Part shown: piece after piece, positions 49,116 to 57,023 of the stretch | How the letters are laid out: the number at the start of each line of letters is the position of its first letter | Numbering within the stretch: the first letter of the stretch is position 1 | Assembly (NCBI GenBank): GCA_015067995.1 | Contig: SVLJ01000008.1 | Coordinates: forward strand, 40,193-104,192 | DNA length: 64,000 nucleotides | Direction of reading: 5' to 3' | From: Oscillospiraceae bacterium | Lineage (GTDB): Bacteria > Bacillota > Clostridia > Oscillospirales > Oscillospiraceae | Translations under genes and position numbers: made by a program | Notes under the pieces: generated by a model | What the model was told of the DNA's origin: nothing | What the model saw: the letters and a program-made list of their open reading frames with translations, nothing else | Database searches by the model: none

Positions 49116-49398
49116 GCGCGTTAAGGGGTTACTATGCCCAGCGCACTGCGATGAACCGGGAGATTGCTCGGAGACGAGGTAACTTTCGGGGAGTATGTCC
49201 GATAATCGGGCGGCTGAGAAGGATCTGTACGTTGCGTAGATCGCTGCGCCATGATCAGTTACCGGCCGGAGCATGCATCCAGCCGGTATTTTTCGTGAGC
49301 CGGAATGATACGCACGGTTAAGCGTATAGAAAAAACTCTCGCCGTAGGTCGTCGAGACGAACTTGAAACAACCTACGAAATTCAGGAGGAAACAAACC
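49116..49398 (+). promoter_or_regulatory. Candidate structured leader of the S10 operon with internal attenuator-like hairpin
   Basis: TACCGGC...GCCGGTATTTTT (49260-49293); CGTAGGT (49343-49349) with ACCTACG (49371-49377) enclosing CGTC-GA-GACG. Confidence 0.5.
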
Positions 49399-56120: not shown

Positions 56121-56306
56121 ATGGCTAAGAAGTCTATGATCCTGAAGCAGCAGGCCCCTGCTAAGTTCTCTACCCGTAAGTACAACCGCTGCAAGCTCTG
56201 CGGCCGTCCCCACGCTTACCTGCGTGACTATGGCGTCTGCCGTATCTGCTTCCGCGAGCTGGCTTACAAGGGCCAGATCCCCGGCGTCCGCAAGGCCTCT
56301 TTCTAA
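56121..56306 (+). CDS. rpsZ: 30S ribosomal protein S14 type Z
   Basis: [41 protein letters not shown]. Confidence 0.97.
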
Positions 56307-56336
56307 GAAAAATTTGAAAAATGGCGCAGAGAGTAC

Positions 56337-56365
56337 TTGACGAATGGAAGATTCTCTGGTACTCT
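56337..56365 (+). promoter_or_regulatory. Putative internal promoter in the ribosomal operon
   Basis: TTGACG - 17 bp - TACTCT in 318-bp intergenic region. Confidence 0.5.
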
Positions 56366-56460
56366 GTAATGTGGGGCATCTTGGAAAAGGTGCGCCACTT
56401 GCGCCATGTTCAGACCCTTTTTCCAGAGCCTGAAAATGACGCAAAATACTCATTTTTTCG

Positions 56461-56598
56461 TATCAAGGGCCTTTGATATGGGGCTTTTGAGATAAACGGA
56501 TGGCGAAAGGTCATGACCAATTGGGTATACATGCGCGAGCAGACTGCTCCATTGGCCATGATACCTCGCTGCCGCAGCGGTACCCCGTAAGGGACCGC
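56461..56598 (+). promoter_or_regulatory. Candidate structured leader of rpsH
   Basis: GGTCATGACCAATTGG (56509-56524) pairs with CCATTGGCCATGATACC (56549-56565); GCGGT-aCCCcgtaaGGG-ACCGC (56577-56598); TATCAA...TTGATA (56461-56478). Confidence 0.5.
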
Positions 56599-56624
56599 AA
56601 CTCTAAAATAGGAGGACATTCAAC

Positions 56625-57023
56625 ATGCATATCACCGATCCTGTTGCGGATATGCTGACCCGCATCCGCAACGCCAACAGCGCTAAGCACGACACCGTTG
56701 ATGTACCCGCTTCCAAGATGAAGAAGAGCATCGCTCAGATTCTGCTGGATGAGGGCTATATCAAGAACTTCACTGTGATCGATGACGGCCTGCAGGGCAT
56801 CATCCGCATCACCCTGAAGTACAATGGCGGCAAGGAAAAGGTCATCACCGGCCTGCGCCGCGTCTCTAAGCCCGGCCTGCGCGTTTACGTGGGCGCCGAT
56901 GAGCTGCCCCGCGTTCTGCGTGGCATGGGTATCGCAATCATTTCCACTTCCAAGGGCGTCATGACCGACAAGAAGGCTCGCGAGGCTCATGTCGGCGGCG
57001 AAGTCCTGGCATTCGTCTGGTAA
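56625..57023 (+). CDS. rpsH: 30S ribosomal protein S8
   Basis: [60 protein letters not shown]. Confidence 0.98.

Follow-up and report, generated by a model that had tools for sequence, protein, structure and literature searches.

S8 control of the spc operon in Escherichia coli is a textbook case. Regulation of the spc operon in Bacillus subtilis and other species was called unknown by a 2024 review (PMC10931766). The S8 core of 16S rRNA helix 21 comprises a base triple A595-(A596-U644), which is G595-(C596-G644) in Thermus, a second triple (G597-C643)-U641, and the invariant A642, on which the STS tripeptide of S8 stacks in known complexes; the core of the E. coli spc operator contains A+80, A+81, and U+11 (PMC4176348). 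Of the 20 new ribosomal protein leaders (r-leaders) described by Eckert and Weinberg in 2020 (PMC7247131), none is for S8, and none lies before rpsH. Likewise, no S8 leader before rpsH was found in the main texts of RNA-discovery papers or in further searches of openly accessible papers. Here we describe a putative S8 autoregulatory leader, recognized by sequence comparison, that has the native 16S strand order and occupies a new place in a new lineage.

The candidate lies in the S10-spc-alpha cluster of the 64-kb window (the whole stretch of DNA analyzed). The gene order is rpsJ...rplE-rpsZ-rpsH-rplF..., and the protein identities of S14 type Z, S8, L5, and L6 in the cluster were confirmed. 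Judged by the S8 protein, the nearest named relatives are Oscillibacter and Dysosmobacter. A non-coding gap of 318 nt between rpsZ and rpsH, remarked on in the earlier note, is real: it occupies 56307–56624 of the plus strand, from the end of rpsZ at 56306 to the start of rpsH (56625–57023, plus strand), which encodes uS8, the putative ligand. Across the rpsH loci of 30 congeners, the gap measures 162–472 nt, with a 5′ half that is mostly unconserved and a final ~130 nt that is near-constant and terminates on rpsH. The whole gap has a folding z-score of −6.0, with 0 of 100 shuffles equally stable, and its 3′ part scores −3.4 versus shuffles. Phage and plasmid collections searched with the gap gave no match, and there is therefore no sign of a mobile element at this site. 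A search of Rfam 15, also proposed in the earlier note, returned no family that matches the gap at gathering or permissive thresholds; none came at or near its gathering score, and only chance snoRNA-like scores were seen. At the opening of the same cluster, upstream of the S10 gene, an S10-Clostridia ribosomal leader (RF03136, 36.1 bits) spans 49143–49213, and the cluster therefore contains at least two leaders.

Comparative alignment and a covariance model revealed that a conserved structured RNA makes up the 3′ half of the gap. Covariance model R2 matches positions 56496–56627 of the plus strand with 84.7 bits, and the 3′ end of this leader element coincides with the rpsH start codon. Hairpin B (56497–56574, plus strand), the putative mimic of the S8 site, is supported by covariation and consists of a basal helix (56497–56506/56566–56574) and an upper helix (56511–56521/56551–56561). 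It is followed on the same strand by hairpin C (56577–56598), a covarying stem with arms GCGGU...ACCGC, and by the short hairpin D. Several of these parts had been noticed from the letters of this one genome. The ~14-bp imperfect helix GGTCATGACC.../...GGCCATGATACC is present and corresponds to the upper part of hairpin B, and the GCGGT...ACCGC repeat before the rpsH ribosome-binding site is hairpin C. The inner AGCAG-a-CTGCT motif is also present, but the apical region in which it lies varies in sequence and length.

A 36-sequence genus/family seed alignment, generated by free MAFFT with the structure assigned after inspection, has the three-hairpin structure paired in 97.4% of cells versus 33–53% with slid partners, and 15 of 31 pairs display compensatory changes. 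Such changes occur in 26 of 31 pairs over 73 more diverse sequences (alignment A3) and in 26 of 30 pairs over 92 sequences from mostly newly drawn genomes (alignment A4), both of these larger alignments being fitted to the model and so biased towards it. Covariation shuffles leave kinship uncorrected; the slid-partner controls correct for it, but A3 and A4 remain model-fitted. The comparison with related genomes advised in the earlier note thus revealed a conserved structure with up to 26 compensated pairs. The helices of the element are strongly diverged among named relatives that carry it before rpsH. Marks of an r-leader found here include a conserved secondary structure supported by covariation and a consistent position upstream of ribosomal protein genes, with rpsH directly downstream in every confirmed match locus that was fetched.

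Hairpin B contains a single conserved internal loop, 5′ A-A-G-G-U-C and 3′ G-A-U-A-C-C, which maps to 16S helix 21 (E. coli numbering from PMC4176348) as A595, G596-C644, G597-C643, U598-A640, C599-G639, U641, and A642. Specifically, the 5′ strand of the core (A595, G596, G597, U598, C599) falls at 56508–56512 and the 3′ strand (G639, A640, U641, A642, C643, C644) at 56560–56565 of the plus strand, placing A642 at position 56563. The presence of this S8 core within the leader had not been pointed out in the earlier note. A642 is invariant (73/73 rows in A3 and 93/93 in A4), as is G597-C643 (72/72 and 92/92 cells), and A595 is found in 70 of 71 and 88 of 89 rows with a letter at this position. 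Among aligned family members, position 641 is almost always U or A, and pair 598-640 alternates between UA and CG. Every aligned A3 cell for pair 596-644 holds GC or AU. GC predominates across the aligned members, AU occurs in some lineages, and in a minority of the divergent members A faces C here. All core counts were taken from covariance-model alignments, an automated scan of all loci having counted hairpin C/D fits as well while overlooking mismatched stems. This substitution pattern, with 597, 642, and 643 fixed and limited changes at 641, 598-640, and 596-644, is that described for S8 sites. We infer that the base triple A595-(596-644) is present in the leader.

The S8 binding site is an asymmetric internal loop with an odd number of nucleotides, seven. 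On the 5′ side of the core, two nucleotides are unpaired in most members, versus one in 16S helix 21. Three divergent loci (L097, L132, and L215) have, by eye, an apparent 16S loop geometry, and divergent family members exist with the E. coli 16S form AAGUC/GAUACU. Helix 21 in the 16S of congeners reads AAGUC/GAAACU, with the same core; relatives' 16S was used for this comparison because that of the window genome is missing from its assembly. A descriptor of the S8 core, composed after the element was seen, identified one plus-strand site in the 64-kb window (56508–56565), against an expectation of ~0.001 per gap length, a result we consider supportive only, and also one antisense site in the gap (56358–56431). 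A stricter descriptor with six inner pairs missed the window element, where a mismatch follows the fifth pair, and the relaxed version was used. The S8 protein encoded in the window retains the STS tripeptide, and its best solved relative is 4PDB, which we take to be the S8–aptamer complex of the PMC4176348 study.

In hairpin D (56601–56614, plus strand), defined by alignments and local folding, CUCU pairs with GGAG of the rpsH Shine-Dalgarno sequence AGGAGG (56610–56615, plus strand). Three of its four pairs have compensatory changes, in few sequences, and much of the conservation of this short hairpin could reflect the Shine-Dalgarno sequence itself. Local folding gives the Shine-Dalgarno sequence a mean pairing probability of ~0.7 over the rpsH loci examined. 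Our analysis suggests, with high confidence, that a cis-acting leader that binds uS8 forms the 3′ part of the gap and that through it S8 would promote pairing of the Shine-Dalgarno sequence, blocking rpsH and the genes coupled to it. S8 in excess of free rRNA would bind hairpin B, an rRNA mimic of the helix 21 loop, and thereby favor a B-C-D stack in which the rpsH Shine-Dalgarno sequence is paired. Initiation of rpsH translation would be blocked, and the block would spread by coupling to rplF, rplR, rpsE, rpmD, rplO, secY, and possibly further, as in E. coli. We propose each of these steps, from the binding of S8 and repression to the part played by the Shine-Dalgarno hairpin and the reach of coupling, on comparative sequence evidence. 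The ‘relocated r-protein-sensing leader’ of the earlier note, with S8 as its candidate, gains support from the conserved covarying structure, the place before rpsH, and the S8 core of helix 21. As also put forward there, rpsH–rpsD may be uncoupled from the upstream half of the operon.

Bound S8 could alternatively repress through mRNA cleavage or decay, or through transcription attenuation, instead of hiding the Shine-Dalgarno sequence. We regard this variant as possible but rather unlikely, and it is compatible with the S8-binding part of our preferred explanation. S8 control in E. coli acts also via mRNA destabilization (PMC10931766), and the leader forms a long double-stranded stem; however, no intrinsic terminator was found in the gap region, and the pairing of hairpin D with the Shine-Dalgarno sequence is retained across the family. 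It is considerably less probable that the structured leader before rpsH senses another ligand, be it a different ribosomal protein or a non-ribosomal factor, and resembles the S8 site by convergence. Multi-gene r-leaders often respond to a ligand other than the first gene's product (PMC7247131), and nothing in the S8 site of rRNA corresponds to hairpin A or C, but the sole conserved internal loop is the S8 core, its substitutions follow the S8-site pattern, and the leader sits directly before the S8 gene.

A putative extended −10 promoter (56337–56365, plus strand) occupies the upstream part of the gap, with TTGACG at 56337–56342, a 17-nt spacer, TACTCT at 56360–56365, and TGG as the extended −10 element. 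The match to consensus is weak, with 8 of 12 hexamer positions, and for this reason a simple scan did not list it. The internal promoter proposed in the earlier note is supported only in part; 9 of 30 congeners share TTGACG-N17-TA with TGG before the −10, and it was not detected in the remaining ones. Since the leader is kept without this promoter, read-through or another promoter must reach it in many genomes. The promoter lies inside a long hairpin (56321–56406), whose arms are TGGCGCA/TGCGCCA and which is similar to one in eight other congeners. The idea that an internal promoter and a stable 5′ UTR account for most of the gap, whose hairpins would do no more than protect the transcript from decay, is highly improbable despite the conservation of the promoter in those nine congeners, given that the leader persists in genomes without it and that a passive stabilizer has no need of a fixed internal loop within freely covarying stems.

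Upstream of the S8-binding candidate, hairpin A (56464–56489, plus strand) exposes the loop UUUGAUAUG and is retained by 23 of 30 congeners, as well as by a few other genera. The loop segment UGAUAUG (56474–56480) is complementary to CAUAUCA in rpsH codons 2–4 (56628–56634). All 30 genomes with a true hairpin A use CAU-AUC codons; another two matches to the pattern, in which the codons differ, appear to be spurious. Outside the genus, and with other families included, 18 of the 181 rpsH loci that lack hairpin A use CAU-AUC. Pairing between the loop and codons 2–4 is only suggestive, because there is little variation in the loop and the association is confounded by kinship. Tentatively, the element may represent an undescribed two-lever class of S8 leader, an interpretation we hold to be rather unlikely, in which S8 would hold the 16S-like hairpin B beside the Shine-Dalgarno hairpin and, in Oscillibacter-like genera, the hairpin A loop would pair with codons 2–4 to close the start site. 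The TATCAA/TTGATA repeat flagged in this region does exist, but only in this genome, and the conserved hairpin there pairs differently, around UUUGAUAUG. We rejected the repeat as a conserved operator, as it was found in this genome alone among the congeners compared.

Of the 80 named relatives whose loci were retrieved, most carry the element ahead of rpsH. Model R2 matched 133 of 151 Oscillospiraceae genomes, representing 65 of 72 genera, with essentially one match per genome; in the 64-kb window, the only match is at rpsH. Genomes G341 and G425 have two matches each. The latter contains two rpsH loci with leaders, on short contigs (L277 and L285), probably due to mixed strains in the assembly. 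Among the 18 family genomes without an R2 match, five yielded no rpsH. In about five of the remaining 13, all with rpsH, an S8 core is visible by eye (e.g., AAGUCACCGG...CCGGUGAUACU before rpsH at L215); the large genome scans were run with strict filters, and weak members may be missed. Across 247 genomes of the order, model R1 matched 27, of which 26 are among the 30 family genomes and one, from outside the family, is a false positive, and R2 matched only the three family members of a class-wide sample of 293. No confirmed member was found outside Oscillospiraceae in the order and class samples. The false positive (locus L147 of genome G261) has no rpsH; positions 1480–1600 of this locus form an unrelated hairpin, and the sequence downstream was read as pnp-like. 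The gaps before rpsH are mostly short in neighboring families. Four loci from another family of the order (L152, L153, L155, and L165) have long gaps before rpsH, 383–519 nt where measured, that are unmatched by the model. These gaps apparently contain a different conserved structure (GGACGGCAACC...GAAGUACCGUC), with AACUUCUGAAAGGAG before the start.

If the proposed S8 leader of this large gut family is real, it would represent an independent solution to S8 feedback, one that repeats the 16S site with the native order of its strands but at a different gene, and it would allow rRNA mimicry to be tested readily. In these bacteria, it would also split the S10-spc-alpha cluster into separately tunable parts. 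Surplus S8 in gut Oscillospiraceae would probably switch off its own gene and the genes behind it.

Like the S10-Clostridia leader (RF03136) and the r-leaders of PMC7247131, the element is a structured leader before ribosomal genes. The E. coli spc operator likewise presents the S8 core on mRNA, using AAGUC and GAAACU, and mediates translational repression of the spc genes by S8, as would be expected for the leader. The two differ in strand order and location. In E. coli the strands are permuted, with GAAACU first and AAGUC ~70 nt later, and the operator lies at the start of rplE, upstream of rpsN-rpsH; in contrast, the leader has neither permuted strands nor a place in the rplE initiation region, but follows the order of 16S helix 21 and is non-coding, directly before rpsH, together with hairpins C and D. 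Compared to 16S helix 21 itself, the leader mostly has G596-C644 for A596-U644, one more unpaired 5′-side nucleotide, and unrelated helix sequences, whereas A595, the 596-644 pair, G597-C643, the 598-640 pair, position 641, and A642 are shared and follow one another 5′ to 3′ as in 16S.
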